NCBI GenBank assembly: GCA_016180645.1
Contig: JACPAV010000013.1
Coordinates: forward strand, 25,049-89,048
Length of the DNA: 64,000 nucleotides
Source of the DNA: Nitrospirota bacterium
GTDB taxonomy: Bacteria > JACPQY01
Direction: 5' to 3'
The notes beneath the pieces were generated by a model. That model saw nothing but the letters and a program-made list of their open reading frames with translations. It did no database searches and had not been told where the DNA came from. Both the position numbers and the translations under genes were made by a program. How positions within the stretch are numbered: the stretch's first letter is position 1; each line of letters begins with the position of its first letter. Shown in pieces: positions 125 through 7,610 of the stretch.

Positions 125-274
125 GAGATTGCTTCGGTCGGTCGTTGCGACCTCCCCCTTGCCCAGGATGGCATGGGGCCATGCAATGTCGCCGCGCCGA
201 GGACGGCGCGGCATGGACCATGGCCTCGCAATGACCACACCCCACCGTCATTGCGAGCGGAGCGAAGCAATCTC
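125..274. repeat. MITE-like composite repeat with inverted ends
   Basis: The left end (125-150, GAGATTGCTTCG...TTGCGA) and right end (246-274, ...TTGCGAG...GAAGCAATCTC) are imperfect inverted copies of each other. Between them, 161-226 holds a nested palindrome: GGGGCCATG near 175, GCCGCGCC / GGCGCGGC around 190-210, and CATGGCC at the end. Related core units occur at about 7661-7724 and, inverted, at about 9294-9350. The right end stops about 13 bases before the rtcB start codon. No transposase is encoded. Ends resembling these are widespread in bacterial genomes (recalled, not searched). Confidence 0.6.
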
Positions 275-286
275 AAGTGCTACAGA

Positions 287-1732
287 ATGACCGCTCAAAT
301 CCCCCTCGAACAAATCGACGACGTCCGCTGGCGGATTCCCGCGTATGGCGACATGCGTGTGGACGGCATCGTGTTCGCGTCGAAGCAGCTCATGGATGCG
401 ATCCGCACGGATCAGAGTCTCCAGCAGGTGGCGAACGTGGCGACGCTGCCCGGAATTCAGAAAGCCTCCTACGCCATGCCGGATATCCATTGGGGTTACG
501 GTTTTCCGATCGGGGGAGTCGCCGCCTTCGACATGGACACCGGCGTCGTTTCGCCGGGCGGGGTCGGATACGACATCAACTGAGGAGTGAGACTCCTGCG
601 CTCCGGTCTGGAGCGCGAGGAGGTCGAAGCGCGAAAGCGCGATCTGATCCCGGCCCTGTTCAGTCGCATCCCCACCGGCGTCGGCTCCCACGGCGCCTAT
701 GACCTGAACGCCCGCGAAGAGGACGAGGTCTACTCCCGCGGTGCCCAGTGGGCCGTGAGCAAAGGGATGGGACTCCACGAGGATCTCCAGCATATCGAGG
801 AGAACGGCTGTTTTCCGAATGCGGAGCCGTCCGAAGTGAGCGATCGCGCGAAGAAGAGGGGTCGTCCCCAACTCGGCACGCTCGGATCGGGGAACCATTT
901 TCTCGAAATCCAGTACGTGGAAGAAATCTACGACGATCCCGCCGCGAATCAGATCGGCCTGTTCAAGAATCAGGTGGTGGTGCTCATTCACACGGGGAGC
1001 CGGGGGTTCGGACATCAGATTTGCGACGATTCCATCCAAGCCATGCTCCGTGCCTCGCAAAAATATGGAATCCAACTGGCCGATCGCCAACTGTGTTGCG
1101 CGCCGATCCGAAGCGCCGAGGGCCAGAGCTACCTTCAGGCGATGGCCTGCGGTGTGAACTATGCGTTCGCCAATCGACAGCTCATCACGCACGGCGTTCG
1201 GGAAGTCTTCAGGGAGTTCTTTGATAAATCCGAGAAAGATATCGCTTTGTCCGTTGTCTACGATGTGTGCCACAACATTGCCAAGATGGAGCGGCACAAG
1301 GTGGGGAGCGTGGAGAAGGAGTACTGCGTGCACCGGAAGGGGGCGACTCGGGCCTTTGCGCCGGGACACCCGAAGGTGCCGCAGGACTATCGCAAGATCG
1401 GCCAACCGGTGCTGATCCCGGGGGACATGGGCCGGTACTCCTACGTGCTGGTGGGCACCGAAGGGGCGATGGGAGAGGCATTCGGCTCGACCTGTCATGG
1501 CGCGGGCCGGCAGATGAGCCGGACGAAGGCCAAGCAGGTGGCGCGAGGGCGGAATATCGAACACGAGCTCGAAGGGCGCGGTGTCGTCGCGCATTCGGCC
1601 ACACGAGCGGGTCTCGCGGAGGAGATTTCCGAGGCCTACAAGGACGTGGCCGATGTGGTTGACGTCGTCCACCGTGCGGGTCTTTCCCGCAAAGTCGCCC
1701 GGCTCCGCCCGATGGCCGTCATCAAGGGGTAG
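287..1732 (+). CDS. rtcB: RNA-splicing ligase RtcB, probable selenoprotein (in-frame TGA at codon 99)
   Basis: RtcB joins RNA 2',3'-cyclic phosphate or 3'-phosphate ends to 5'-OH ends using GTP and Mn2+. Read through TGA 581-583, the gene gives 481 residues, the usual RtcB length. Upstream is GGVGYDIN and downstream GVRLLRS, with no frame change. The family has Cys at this exact position (Cys98 in Pyrococcus horikoshii, a Mn ligand). The other ligands are all present at matching spacing: D96, H204 (GNHF), H235 (HTGSRG), H329 (CHNIAK) and H404 (STCHGAG, the guanylylated His). A SECIS-like hairpin with a GGTCT loop starts 14 bases after the TGA. The ATG at 287 gives [11 protein letters not shown]; no clear Shine-Dalgarno is seen, as a repeat abuts the start. 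The alternative, a nonsense mutation, would be a coincidence of site, frame and hairpin. No rtcA or archease gene is nearby. Confidence 0.88.
598..616 (+). promoter_or_regulatory. Candidate bacterial SECIS element
   Basis: A perfect 7-bp stem, GCGCTCC (598-604) with GGAGCGC (610-616), closes a 5-base loop GGTCT (605-609). The loop begins 21 bases after the in-frame TGA of rtcB. The E. coli fdhF SECIS that binds SelB also has a short stem with a GGUCU-type apical loop at a similar distance. A T597-G617 wobble could extend the stem. A smaller hairpin (GGAGT 584-588 / ACTCC 592-596) lies between the TGA and this stem. Confidence 0.8.
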
Positions 1733-1743
1733 GGACAAGTTTC

Positions 1744-3189
1744 TTGGATTGGCGATTTCTTCCTTCCGCCATTCAGGGCTTGGGGGGCGTTCCAAGGCCG
1801 ATACGAGTTCTCGTGTTTCTGCTGATGGCAGTTGCCGTTGGATGCGGTGGCTCTGAAAAGCCCAAGCCTCCCTGTGGGGAGGACGAACTGAGCGTTATCC
1901 ATCCCGAAATCGTCTTTGCCAATGTGGGCCGGGGCGCCGCCTTTACCACCTCCGCGAAGTATGTTCGGGCCGATTGCGAGGAGACGGCTCTACCGGTGAA
2001 TCTGGAGGCTGATTCAGGCGTCGAAATTCGGCGCGTTGGGGATGAGACCTCCCTCGTCCCGAAGGTTGAAGGCACGCACACGATCCTTGTGTCGGCGACT
2101 TACGAGGGGATGGAAGTCCAGGCCACGGTCAAGCTGGTGGCGCTTGGGAACGCTACAGTCGAGGGAGCGTACGTGGTCCGAACAAGAAACGTCGTGCGAA
2201 GGCTCGATTCACCTTTCAGCGAGGGCTTGGATTGGTTCTTCGGATGCTACGGAGAGATGGTAGCCACTTCTCACTTCGTGTCATGTATTGGCGCGCCATT
2301 GATGGGGACACAGGTAGTTAGCCCGCGACTCGATCGGCTGCTGGTTGATTCGGGCGTCGGCGTAATCTTGCTCCCTTACATCTGGGGACTGGGTGGCGAC
2401 GGCCCACTCTTGGGGAGAGCCAGCTCGCTTTCGCCGGTACTGATGGTTGATGAAATCTCACCGGACGCAGGCATTTTGAGAACCGCCACGTATGAACCTC
2501 CGCCGAATCCGATCCGGGAAAGACTAGACGAGGAATCTTGTTCCCTCCGCAAAAAAACAATGTGCCCCGGTCGGCTTGCGAATCGTCCGAACAACGTTGC
2601 TATCGAAGGCAACCTCGTCGCGATGACCGATCTCCTGGGCGGCCTGTACCTCCTTCGATACGTCGACGGGACTCTTGTCGAACTCGCGCGCACGTATCCG
2701 ACTTCCGAATTGAAGGTGCGCGGAGAGTCCGAACACCCCATCCCCGTGGTCCTGGATGGAACGTCATTGTGGATGTTCTACGGGGGAAACTTTGTCGTTC
2801 ACGACATCTCGGAGGTGGCATCACCACGCATGATCGCAAAAGGAACGCTTCCCCGCGGCAGCCTTCCGATCACGGCTCGTTCGGGCCGCCTCTGGCTGAT
2901 CGATGGGAGCAGGTTGGAGGTCGATCGGCTGGAAGGGGGAATTCCGGTCAAGAGAGATGAATTTGATCTGGGTAGCCGGGTAGCAGGTTTGGCCGTTCTC
3001 CGTTCGCGTGTCGTCCTGCTCGGGGACACTTCTTTGGTCGAATTGGAGGCCGACGAAAGCGACAAACTGAGACCTCTTCGCAAGATCGCCCATTATGGGG
3101 CTGGAATGGGTGGAATCGCCTATGCGCCGGACGGTTCGATTCTCGCGGGCGGTTACGGCTTCATCCTCCGGATCGCCTCCGCGCCATGA
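1744..3189 (+). CDS. Putative lipoprotein with propeller-like repeats
   Basis: The protein is about 481 residues. A hydrophobic segment (LVFLLMAVAVGC) ends in a lipobox-like AVGC, so export and lipidation are likely. The start is uncertain: TTG 1744 gives a long n-region, while in-frame TTG 1780 gives a more typical signal peptide (MGGVPRPIRVLVFLL). After an Ig-like stretch, the second half has loosely repeated segments (VAIEGNLVAMTDLLGGLYLL; LWMFYGGNFVVHDIS; LAVLRSRVVLLGD; IAYAPDGSILAGG) that look like blades of a beta-propeller, reminiscent of LVIVD-repeat proteins. No enzyme motif is recognised. It follows rtcB by 11 bases but shows no functional link to it. Confidence 0.65.
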   Translation: MDWRFLPSAIQGLGGVPRPIRVLVFLLMAVAVGCGGSEKPKPPCGEDELSVIHPEIVFANVGRGAAFTTSAKYVRADCEETALPVNLEADSGVEIRRVGDETSLVPKVEGTHTILVSATYEGMEVQATVKLVALGNATVEGAYVVRTRNVVRRLDSPFSEGLDWFFGCYGEMVATSHFVSCIGAPLMGTQVVSPRLDRLLVDSGVGVILLPYIWGLGGDGPLLGRASSLSPVLMVDEISPDAGILRTATYEPPPNPIRERLDEESCSLRKKTMCPGRLANRPNNVAIEGNLVAMTDLLGGLYLLRYVDGTLVELARTYPTSELKVRGESEHPIPVVLDGTSLWMFYGGNFVVHDISEVASPRMIAKGTLPRGSLPITARSGRLWLIDGSRLEVDRLEGGIPVKRDEFDLGSRVAGLAVLRSRVVLLGDTSLVELEADESDKLRPLRKIAHYGAGMGGIAYAPDGSILAGGYGFILRIASAP

Positions 3190-3214: not shown

Positions 3215-3583
3215 TCAGGAGGGCAGTTCCAAAAGGCGCCGGAGTTGCTCTCGAAGGATTGATACCTCATCGGCCAGCGCCTTCACCTGCTCAGGCGTGA
3301 GCCACCCTTCGTAAAAATTGATGTGGAGGGCGCTTGCGTCGGCAAAGAATTTCTGGAGGTCTTTGAGGCCGGTTTCCTGCGCAATTCTCCCGATGATCTT
3401 GAAAAGAGTGGCGTGTCCGTCGTGAGGCCACCCACGCTCTTCGGCCAAGGCCTTGACCAGTTCAGCGGCGCATCCCCAGAGCTTCTCGGAGGCTTGAGGC
3501 CAATCCTCTTCCGAGATCAATTTCTGGGAATGCTGCCAATACTGATCGCTCAGGGCAACGTAGTGATCGGCCTTTGGCGACAT
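3215..3583 (-). CDS. PaREP1/HEPN-like small helical protein
   Basis: The 122-residue all-helical protein contains YVALSDQYWQHSQKLISEED, then WGCAAELVKALAEERGW, and HINFYEGWLTPEQV near the end. This pattern is typical of the PaREP1 family, which is HEPN-like and often found in archaea and thermophiles. HEPN proteins are frequently RNases or toxin components, but the RxxxxH active motif is not evident here, so function is unknown. It is the last gene downstream of the nitric-oxide operon on the same strand, 62 bases after the NnrS-like gene. Confidence 0.6.
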   Translation of the reverse strand: MSPKADHYVALSDQYWQHSQKLISEEDWPQASEKLWGCAAELVKALAEERGWPHDGHATLFKIIGRIAQETGLKDLQKFFADASALHINFYEGWLTPEQVKALADEVSILREQLRRLLELPS

Positions 3584-5465: not shown

Positions 5466-5536
5466 CACTCCCTTCGTGATCCGGCCATCGTGGCCGGCAT
5501 CAAAGGTTGGGAGTGCGGCGAGCGTCATGCCCGCCG
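5466..5536. repeat. Dispersed palindromic repeat, family B, copy 1
   Basis: The element contains GATCCGGCCATCGTGGCCGG followed by a conserved arm, AAGGTTGGGAGT. A second copy with the same architecture lies inside sthA at 8791-8860. This copy spans the gap between the amidotransferase and hemerythrin genes and supplies the last codons and stop of the hemerythrin gene (C-terminus GGHDARRTPNL). Confidence 0.7.
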
Positions 5537-6063
5537 CATGCGCAGTGGCATTGACCATGCCCGGTCGGCGCTTCAGCGGAGGGATCCACCTCCGCGGCCG
5601 AATGCATCCGTTCGAGAATGTCACGCTGGGCCTCGTCCGACATGTGCCGTTCCATAATGGGAAGATAGCCCTCTTCTTCCTTCCTAACGTGGAGTGTTAC
5701 TACGGCCAGGAGTTGCAGGGCAAGGCGCGAAAGCCGTTCCCGCAGGACTGGGCGATCGACTTCCGGCGCGAGTGGAACGGTGCGGGCGATTTCGTCGATC
5801 TGCCGGATCGTGTTCTCGATCCATTGGTGATCCATCGACATCGTGGCCGTGGCATCCGCGTGATCCCGAAGAATGGGATTCAGCGCCGGGTAGAGGTGAA
5901 GTTCTTCGCCCTGGGCGTGCGGCAGGAGCTCCTCGTTGAGAAAGGCCGCCAGATCTCTTGCGGCCCCCCCCTGGGCTCCGCTCAGCACATGGTCGGTGTA
6001 TCCAGCCAGACTGTTCAAAAGGCTGCGGTGATGATTTCGAATGGCGTCGGTGGTGGTGCTCAT
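5500..6063 (-). CDS. Hemerythrin HHE-domain protein
   Basis: The 187-residue, mostly helical protein has the HHE cation-binding layout: HHRSLLNSL near residue 11, HAQGEELHLYPAL near 49, MSMDHQWIE near 78, and HVRKEEEGYLPIMERH near 125. These His and Glu residues would hold a di-iron centre. In nitric-oxide regulons such proteins bind NO or O2 or help repair Fe-S centres (YtfE/DnrN-like role). A Cys/His-rich tail (GHGQCHCACGGHD) is partly encoded by the family B repeat. It is the fourth gene of the nsrR operon. Confidence 0.85.
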   Translation of the reverse strand: MSTTTDAIRNHHRSLLNSLAGYTDHVLSGAQGGAARDLAAFLNEELLPHAQGEELHLYPALNPILRDHADATATMSMDHQWIENTIRQIDEIARTVPLAPEVDRPVLRERLSRLALQLLAVVTLHVRKEEEGYLPIMERHMSDEAQRDILERMHSAAEVDPSAEAPTGHGQCHCACGGHDARRTPNL

Positions 6064-6074
6064 GGGTTATCTCC

Positions 6075-6386
6075 TTATTCGTTCCAGCCCAATTGCTGTC
6101 GGGCGATCGGCGACATCATCATGGGGTTCCAGGGCGGGTCCCAGACCAGGTCGACGCTGATCTCCGGGGATCCCGGCACATTCGCTTCGATGGCGTTTCG
6201 AGCCATTTCGAGCAGATGCGTTCCCATGGGGCAGCCCGGCGCGGTTACCGTCATCTGCACGTGCACTCGGTCCGCATCCGCCTCGATGTGGTACACGAGG
6301 CCGAGGTCGACGATGTTGACCCCCAGTTCGGGATCGACGACGTGGCTGAGGGCGCCCATCACTTCCTCTTTGATGTCCTTTTCCAT
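6075..6386 (-). CDS. DUF59/MIP18-family iron-sulfur assembly protein
   Basis: The 103-residue protein matches the PaaD/SufT-like DUF59 domain: VMGALSHVVDPELGVNIVDLGLVY at the N-terminus and TVTAPGCPMG with the conserved Cys in the middle, ending in VDLVWDPPWNPMMMS. The family assists maturation of Fe-S clusters. The gene sits two bases downstream of the DUF2249/hemerythrin gene and 11 bases before the second hemerythrin gene, which fits repair of NO-damaged clusters. It is full length for the family. Confidence 0.85.
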   Translation of the reverse strand: MEKDIKEEVMGALSHVVDPELGVNIVDLGLVYHIEADADRVHVQMTVTAPGCPMGTHLLEMARNAIEANVPGSPEISVDLVWDPPWNPMMMSPIARQQLGWNE

Positions 6387-6388
6387 GA

Positions 6389-7084
6389 TCAGTAAGCCCG
6401 CATCCGATGGACCAAGTCATCGCGTTCGCCTTGGGAGAGCGATTGGTCGGACATCGGATAAAGGATCTGCTCTTCCTTGCGATTGTGTCCGGTCAGGATC
6501 TCGACCAATTCGTCGGCCGGGCCGGCGATCTTCGATGCTGCAATCGGCGCATCGTTCGAAGAAAGCGCCGATTCAATTTCGGCCATGCAGCTTTGGATCC
6601 CGCGGTGCTCCTGGCGCATAACGGCGGTGGGTCCGGCAGCGTGCATCCCCGTGCGCTCCTCGAAGATCGGGAACAGGATTTCCTCCTCGATGCGGATGTG
6701 TCGACGGAGCCCCAGCGCGAATTCGGAGAATCGGGCGCGTCCCTCGTTGAGTTGGCTCTTTTCCACATGATCGCGAAAGGCTGCCCAAAGTACATCCAGG
6801 CGTCGATGATCCCTTTGGAGCAAGTCGGTGATCGAAGCGGGCGCCGTTCGGCCGCGCTTGGCGATCAGGACGCGCCAGATCGCGGGACCCTGTTCGAGGG
6901 GCCACCATTCGAACCCATCGCGGCGTTCGAAGTGGAATTGGTGCAAGAGCGGCACGGGGTTGTGGTCGTTGACGAGCTCGAAGGCTCCGTCCGGGGGCAA
7001 ATCGTCGAACGTTGTGAAGATTCGGGGGTGGCGCTCCCGAGGGGGGATGGCGCGCACGTCCATGATCGATCCGTTGTTGTTCAT
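6389..7084 (-). CDS. DUF2249 plus hemerythrin two-domain protein
   Basis: Residues about 5-75 form a DUF2249-type domain (DVRAIPPRERHPRIFTTFDD, LVNDHNPVPLLHQF, GFEWWPLEQGP). Residues about 85-230 are a hemerythrin bundle with DHRRLDVLW, RRHIRIEEEILFPIFEE, RQEHRGIQ and GHNRKEEQILYPMSDQ supplying di-iron ligands. This fusion is common in denitrifiers and other nitric-oxide-responsive bacteria. The ATG overlaps the nsrR stop as ATGA (7081-7084), so the two are translationally coupled. Confidence 0.87.
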   Translation of the reverse strand: MNNNGSIMDVRAIPPRERHPRIFTTFDDLPPDGAFELVNDHNPVPLLHQFHFERRDGFEWWPLEQGPAIWRVLIAKRGRTAPASITDLLQRDHRRLDVLWAAFRDHVEKSQLNEGRARFSEFALGLRRHIRIEEEILFPIFEERTGMHAAGPTAVMRQEHRGIQSCMAEIESALSSNDAPIAASKIAGPADELVEILTGHNRKEEQILYPMSDQSLSQGERDDLVHRMRAY

Positions 7085-7566
7085 GAGACCTCCTTTTGAA
7101 GTGGATCAGCCGAGCGTGGATGCGTGGGTGACCGGTCAACCCGAAGCATGGCGGAGAGGGCCTTCCGACGACGCAAGACGTCCTCCAGAGTGTACCCGTC
7201 GAGCACGGCGTAGAAACTGGAGAGGGCCTTGCCGATGGCTTGTTTCAGAGAGCAGACGGGATCGATCCGACAGGTGTTGGAGGCGAGGTCGAAGCACTCG
7301 ACGAGCGTCCAATTTTCCTCCGTCTTTCGAACGACCTCGCCAAGCCGAATGTCGGCGGCCGCCCTGGAAAGTCGAATGCCCCCGCCGCGACCCCGGAGTG
7401 TATCCACATATCCGAATTGTCCCAGTCGGTGGACCACTTTCATCAAGTGATTCCGCGAAATACCGTAACTCCGGGCGATCTCCCGGATGGTGGACGGATG
7501 ATCCCCGCGGAGCCCGAGGTAGATCAGGACCCGAAGCGAGTAGTCCGTGTACTGTGTCAGTCGCAT
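7081..7566 (-). CDS. nsrR: Rrf2-family nitric-oxide-sensing repressor, NsrR-type
   Basis: The 161-residue protein begins MRLTQYTDYSLRVLIYLGLR, the usual Rrf2 N-terminus, followed by a winged helix (IREIARSYGISRNHLMKVV) and the wing RGRGGGIRLSR. Three cysteines, C91, C99 and C105, have the C-x7-C-x5-C spacing of the NsrR Fe-S site (Bacillus subtilis C92/C100/C106). Nitric oxide reacting with the cluster releases DNA. ATG 7566 is preceded by GGAG. A near-ideal NsrR operator overlaps the promoter 18 bases upstream, so autoregulation of the whole operon is strongly suggested. Confidence 0.9.
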   Translation of the reverse strand: MRLTQYTDYSLRVLIYLGLRGDHPSTIREIARSYGISRNHLMKVVHRLGQFGYVDTLRGRGGGIRLSRAAADIRLGEVVRKTEENWTLVECFDLASNTCRIDPVCSLKQAIGKALSSFYAVLDGYTLEDVLRRRKALSAMLRVDRSPTHPRSADPLQKEVS

Positions 7567-7583
7567 GTGTGAGCCGTCTCCGC

Positions 7584-7610
7584 TAAAGATGTACACAATA
7601 TACATCTTTA
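7584..7610 (-). promoter_or_regulatory. NsrR operator (inverted repeat)
   Basis: TAAAGATGTA (7584-7593) and TACATCTTTA (7601-7610) are perfect inverted repeats separated by 7 bases. They contain the AAGATGYA / TRCATCTT halves of the known NsrR consensus. The site covers the -10 hexamer of the nsrR promoter, placing a bound repressor over RNA polymerase. Confidence 0.88.

Follow-up and report, generated by a model that had tools for sequence, protein, structure and literature searches.

Results

An rtcB gene with a single in-frame TGA

The window (the whole stretch of DNA analysed, 64,000 nucleotides of a Nitrospirota bacterium contig) contains near its start an rtcB gene whose translation gives a 481-residue frame with a lone TGA, at codon 99. 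The features of the gene are as follows (window positions).

287..1732, + strand: rtcB coding frame, with the TGA read as selenocysteine (Sec, U99); based on translation, Pfam RtcB and PDB relatives
572..574, + strand: codon of Asp96, a metal ligand (Asp95 in P. horikoshii RtcB), invariant in 158 loci
581..583, + strand: predicted Sec codon TGA, codon 99, equivalent to P. horikoshii RtcB Cys98; alignment to 1uc2/2epg, TGA in 44 of 158 loci
591..625, + strand: predicted bacterial SECIS, full stem; fold of 581-628, -23.2 kcal/mol, z -2.8 against dinucleotide shuffles
598..616, + strand: apical stem-loop of the SECIS, arms 598-604/610-616, loop GGTCT 605-609, agreeing with the bSECIS model
896..898, + strand: codon of His204, a metal ligand in the SGNHF motif, invariant in 158 loci
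989..991, + strand: codon of His235, a metal ligand in the IHTGSRG motif, invariant in 158 loci
1274..1276, + strand: codon of His330, a metal ligand in the CHNIAK motif, invariant in the loci that reach that far
1499..1501, + strand: codon of His405, presumed GMP-accepting histidine in the CHGAGR motif, invariant in the loci that reach that far

The protein belongs to the Pfam RtcB family (PF01139), scoring 593.7 bits for residues 47-481 where the cut-off is 27. Of the solved structures, the nearest to it are those of T. thermophilus TTHA1785 (2epg, E 1.7e-178) and P. horikoshii PH1602 (1uc2, E 1.7e-167). In the phmmer alignments, codon 99 lies opposite the Cys in '...GYDINCGVRL...', Cys98 of PH1602. 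This residue is an intein splice junction in P. horikoshii RtcB; there is no intein in the frame of the natural Sec enzymes. The protein has Asp96, Asn203, His204, His235, His330 and His405, each invariant in the loci that cover it, so that the RtcB metal ligands and the guanylylated histidine are complete except for the Cys, whose codon is TGA. The role of His405 as GMP acceptor is assumed here from His404 of P. horikoshii RtcB. A sequence-only reading of the window had placed the TGA at the Mn-ligand Cys of a 481-residue RtcB, with the frame intact on either side and the remaining ligands in place, and the translation, profile and structural relatives agree with it on each of these points. 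The observation of an otherwise intact rtcB interrupted by a TGA and followed by a hairpin is therefore confirmed.

Without recoding, a GTG at 587 would open a 381-codon frame that does not include the metal ligand. rtcB is single-copy in the source genome (4.7 Mb, 97% complete), where no second rtcB was found; the idea that a Cys-type second copy makes the TGA copy dispensable was rejected. A 515-codon open frame runs antisense to the whole of rtcB (window 248-1795, - strand) and, as its composition and the lack of need for it suggest, most likely just reflects the high GC content of the coding strand.

TGA occurs at the same codon in relatives

A scan of genome contigs gave 80 rtcB loci, five of them with TGA at the site. 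Two phylum-level groups, one with Acidobacteria MAGs and one with a Deltaproteobacteria MAG, were also searched, and TGA rtcB was present in at least 12 of 234 and at least 29 of 300 of their rtcB-bearing genomes. The genomes identified by title are all metagenome assemblies. In the resulting 158 rtcB loci the codon at the site was TGC (86), TGT (28) or TGA (44) and nothing else, and the rest of the aligned frame was free of in-frame stops in all 158. These genes thus show a pattern expected of bacterial selenoproteins, an in-frame UGA opposite the Cys of homologues and within conserved sequence (44 TGA vs. 114 Cys codons). Most of the 43 TGA loci other than the window gene are frame-intact to the end and have a matching hairpin. 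Downstream of the TGA, substitution rates between the window gene and one TGA relative (L042) were 0.30/0.23/0.53 at codon positions 1/2/3; differences from the TGA relatives fall mostly at third positions, and the downstream part is therefore under selection as protein. Together with the absence of further stops and the invariant ligands, this speaks against decay of the frame beyond the TGA and upholds the original preference for recoding over a nonsense mutation.

A quick maximum-likelihood tree, with the Sec/Cys site masked and many branches weakly supported, required at least 18 Sec/Cys changes, of which well-supported branches force 8; it is compatible with change in either direction. 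The Cys genes L025, L143, L106 and L010/L103 nest among Sec genes and retain a SECIS-like hairpin. Among these, L025 and the Sec gene L166 are sisters, and their apical stem-loops are identical. These Cys genes look like recent Sec-to-Cys replacements carrying a fossil hairpin. A SECIS-like hairpin is also found in L138, a Cys-type rtcB that does not nest directly with Sec genes and is a further candidate for such a replacement. An origin of the TGA form from phages or plasmids was rejected: a pattern search of viral contigs returned no TGA form. Phage and plasmid RtcBs, compared by identity, were below 60%.

A conserved hairpin follows the TGA

The bSECIS model describes a loop of 3-9 nt, an upper stem of 4-16 bp, G in the first two loop positions, a distance of 16-37 nt from the UGA and a minimum free energy of at most -7.5 kcal/mol (PMC13188914). 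The window hairpin, with its GGTCT loop, a 7 bp stem touching the loop, a TGA-to-loop spacing of 21 nt and -21.0 kcal/mol, satisfies the model and is the best among the 44 TGA genes in the model scan. The 39 nt after the TGA gave z -3.03 against shuffles keeping the protein sequence. A hairpin with a GGTCT loop starting 14 bases past the TGA had been noticed in the sequence-only reading, and the arm found here from 598 and the loop at 605-609 correspond to it. An Rfam scan of 540-700 returned sub-threshold chance matches alone, with no SECIS family.

Among the relatives, 35/44 TGA genes satisfied the bSECIS model, compared to 16/114 Cys genes; the remaining 9 TGA genes failed its strict form mostly on energy or loop sequence. 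An unbroken run of at least five base pairs adjoining the loop, in the SECIS register, was present in 38/44 TGA and 9/114 Cys genes (Fisher p 1e-21, a value that ignores shared ancestry). Stability against synonymous-codon shuffles was also higher in the TGA genes (median z -1.40 vs. -0.29 in the Cys genes; Mann-Whitney p 1.7e-7), while a control stretch 99-138 nt downstream showed no difference in stability between the two (p 0.51). The conservation of the hairpin in the TGA genes exceeds what codon choice explains. In L129-L132, which form a distant clade, several arm positions are changed and pairing is kept (gagaaccGGTCTggttctc vs. gcgctccGGTCTggagcgc), and the predicted stem is preserved there by paired changes. 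Some TGA genes have apical loops other than GGUC (AGUU, GGGUU, GUGUU; for example L009:1129-1190), a variation that suggests lineage-specific recognition by SelB.

The source genome encodes the selenocysteine machinery

All four components whose presence had been proposed as a check were found in the source genome: selA (contig C22, 556 bits), selB (C42, 369.8 bits; the single SelB above cut-off), tRNA-Sec, the selC product, with anticodon UCA (C11, 73.3 bits), and selD (C5, 356.9 bits). The selD gene carries its own in-frame TGA at the usual Sec site (...CAG-U-AGKIG...), and UxxK is the motif listed for Sec-containing SelD (PMC9312934). The Sec trait is thus complete in the source genome, which also has at least one other selenoprotein gene, of an already known kind.

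selB was above cut-off in 42/44 TGA genomes; G292 and G409 have strong tRNA-Sec matches instead. ARAGORN confirmed the UCA anticodon in 30 TGA genomes, including the source genome. In the Cys comparison genomes selB was found in 29/36 (Fisher p 0.07 vs. 42/44). The co-occurrence of selB and TGA-rtcB therefore has the expected direction and serves as a weak consistency check, Sec users being common in these phyla.

The phylum of the window is represented by two genomes in the set, and the other one (G001) is 84% complete. At that completeness selA, selD and tRNA-Sec were not found in G001 and no SelB was above cut-off. Its rtcB is a C-terminal remnant corresponding to residues 367-481, with an in-frame TAA (positions 5850-6194 of L133, G001:C1:15000-26000). 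This fits the Sec trait and a Sec-dependent rtcB having been lost together; the incompleteness of the genome may also explain the missing sel genes.

Alternative explanations for the TGA

A nonsense mutation or assembly error, leaving rtcB dead or truncated, has next to no probability. Broken rtcB copies do exist, as the remnant in G001 demonstrates, but the TGA recurs at this codon, and nowhere else, in 44 independent loci from many genomes, the downstream frame is under protein constraint and the hairpin is conserved, and we reject this explanation. Genome-wide reassignment of UGA to a sense codon such as Trp, by which the gene would be decoded in the ordinary way, might be entertained in so poorly sampled a lineage. 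It is equally improbable, since the tRNA-Trp found reads UGG (anticodon CCA), Trp in rtcB is encoded by TGG, 16 of the 39 long predicted frames in the window (mechanical frames) end in TGA, and the residue at codon 99 is Cys in relatives; it was likewise rejected on the TGA stops and the tRNA-Trp anticodon. A third way of reading through would be insertion of cysteine at the UGA by a selC*-type tRNA-Cys, using SelB or a second SelB*, with an ordinary Cys-RtcB as the product. Deltaproteobacteria are known to have such tRNAs, in some cases with a UCA anticodon and a SelB* to go with them (Mukai et al., reviewed in PMC7609411), and the source genome contains a selC*-like tRNA-Cys, which has a long variable arm. 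Its anticodon, however, is GCA, which cannot read UGA; the sole UCA tRNA found in that genome is the canonical tRNA-Sec, beside one SelB above cut-off, and canonical tRNA-Sec with UCA is the top match in all 30 of the ARAGORN-confirmed genomes. Cysteine insertion by selC* is unsupported in the source genome and we regard it as very unlikely. In one TGA genome, G630, a second UCA tRNA (L214, G630:C262:8200-8500) adjoins a second, partial SelB (G630:C262:7138-8205); this is a possible second UGA-decoding system, and decoding is therefore less certain there.

The remaining alternative accepts Sec insertion and concerns its purpose: the UGA would be leaky, most of the product would be a 98-residue peptide ending at the stop, and Sec would act as a selenium-dependent switch of RtcB level and not as improved chemistry. 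Bacterial Sec insertion competes with RF2 termination, with 30-40% recoding in vivo reported in PMC4513850, and RtcB level would follow the selenium supply because rtcB is single-copy in the source genome. Against it, neither a regulatory element nor a second rtcB was found, and the repeated Sec/Cys exchange fits a catalysis-neutral replacement as well as regulation. We consider such a switch unlikely, though less so than the other alternatives.

The selC*-like tRNA-Cys (G000:C22:24197-24287; L006:1501-1592) has a U discriminator and scores 47.2 bits on the tRNA-Sec model. It shares its contig with selA, and an ordinary tRNA-Cys is also present in the genome (L007:446-518).

Discussion

A probable selenoprotein form of RtcB

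The product of the window gene is very probably a selenoprotein, a Sec-containing form of the 3'-phosphate/5'-OH RNA ligase RtcB. In translation, the ribosome would meet the UGA at codon 99, and SelB carrying Sec-tRNA-Sec(UCA) would bind the hairpin 21 nt downstream, leading to the insertion of Sec. The product would be a 481-residue RtcB in which Sec takes the place of the bridging thiolate between the two catalytic metal ions. As the rest of the active site is standard, RNA ligation with Mn2+ and GTP would be expected as in other RtcBs. Sec insertion in the cell and the enzyme activity are both what we infer from the sequence.

The corresponding cysteine of RtcB is bound to both metal ions and supports catalysis via metal binding (PMC13247085). 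It is sensitive to oxidation, upon which the metals are released and the enzyme is stopped; in animals it is protected by PYROXD1 and repaired by thioredoxin (PMC12263435, PMC10653391). Resistance of selenium to irreversible over-oxidation is the reason proposed for Sec in [NiFeSe] hydrogenase (PMC13188914). By analogy, the benefit of Sec in RtcB might be a redox-resilient metal ligand, the selenolate being oxidised and then reduced back and not lost to over-oxidation; we put the chances of this at about even. Sec would then be an intrinsic answer to the problem that animals handle with PYROXD1 and thioredoxin, addressing the oxidation of the same active-site residue by a change in the residue itself where animals use separate proteins. 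An engineered P. horikoshii RtcB with Sec at the same residue (U98), produced in E. coli in 2014, self-cleaved next to residue 98 (PMC4150793). This counts against an easy reading of Sec at the site; the natural Sec enzymes, which lack the intein, may be adapted to it. In the engineered protein, moreover, Sec was placed at a UAG codon through an EF-Tu system, whereas the natural enzymes would rely on UGA, SECIS and SelB.

Comparison with known systems and novelty

Compared to the known RtcBs (PH1602, T. thermophilus TTHA1785 and human RTCB; PF01139), the window gene is alike in full-length homology, length, ligands and GMP-accepting histidine, and it differs in having a Sec codon for the metal-bridging Cys and a SECIS hairpin within the coding sequence. 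With formate dehydrogenase FdhA and [NiFeSe] hydrogenase it shares a UGA at a metal-ligand position and a bSECIS just downstream. We take its GGUC(U) loop to resemble that of E. coli fdhF. FdhA and [NiFeSe] hydrogenase have a Mo/W or Ni redox centre, unlike RtcB, whose substrate is RNA and in which Mn2+ would be expected in a two-metal ligase without net redox.

RtcB is absent from the main texts of the 87-family selenoprotein list of 2022 (PMC9312934) and the 119-family list of May 2026 (PMC13188914). Neither 'ligase' nor 'RtcB' occurs in the main texts of these two papers or of PMC12013277, PMC5029168 and PMC2398784. Among the open full texts searched for RtcB together with selenoproteins, the engineered U98 enzyme was the one relevant case, and an unlisted mention may exist. 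The sequence-only reading knew of no characterised Sec-RtcB; this stands for the natural form, missing from the inventories' main texts, and has to be qualified for the engineered U98 protein of 2014 (PMC4150793). Judged by its genes, Sec-RtcB is a real selenoprotein family, absent from the main texts of published inventories. Both RtcB and bacterial selenoproteins are known; their combination has not been listed before. We think it likely that this is a natural, widespread and unlisted family with a selenolate-bridged two-metal RtcB centre, in which Sec would take a direct part in RNA repair and splicing chemistry as a ligand in a non-redox Mn2+ centre, chosen so that the centre can be re-reduced after oxidation.

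The source bacterium and at least 43 others sampled appear to make a Sec RtcB, and selenium is thereby connected to RNA repair. The selenoproteins catalogued so far are nearly all redox enzymes; in RtcB, the cysteine serves to bind metal and is a known weak point under oxidation. The natural Sec/Cys swaps, some apparently with a fossil SECIS, form matched pairs for testing Sec in a non-redox metal centre. Standard annotation would end such genes at codon 98, and rtcB would then be reported as truncated or missing.

Other genes in the window

At 5500-7605 (- strand), the window encodes two hemerythrin-domain proteins (one with DUF2249), an FeS-assembly-P protein and an Rrf2 regulator, a cluster resembling NO/iron-sulfur stress genes. 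A PaREP1/PaREP8 family protein (71.3 bits) is encoded at 3215-3583 (- strand); the family is named for archaea, and the host here is bacterial.
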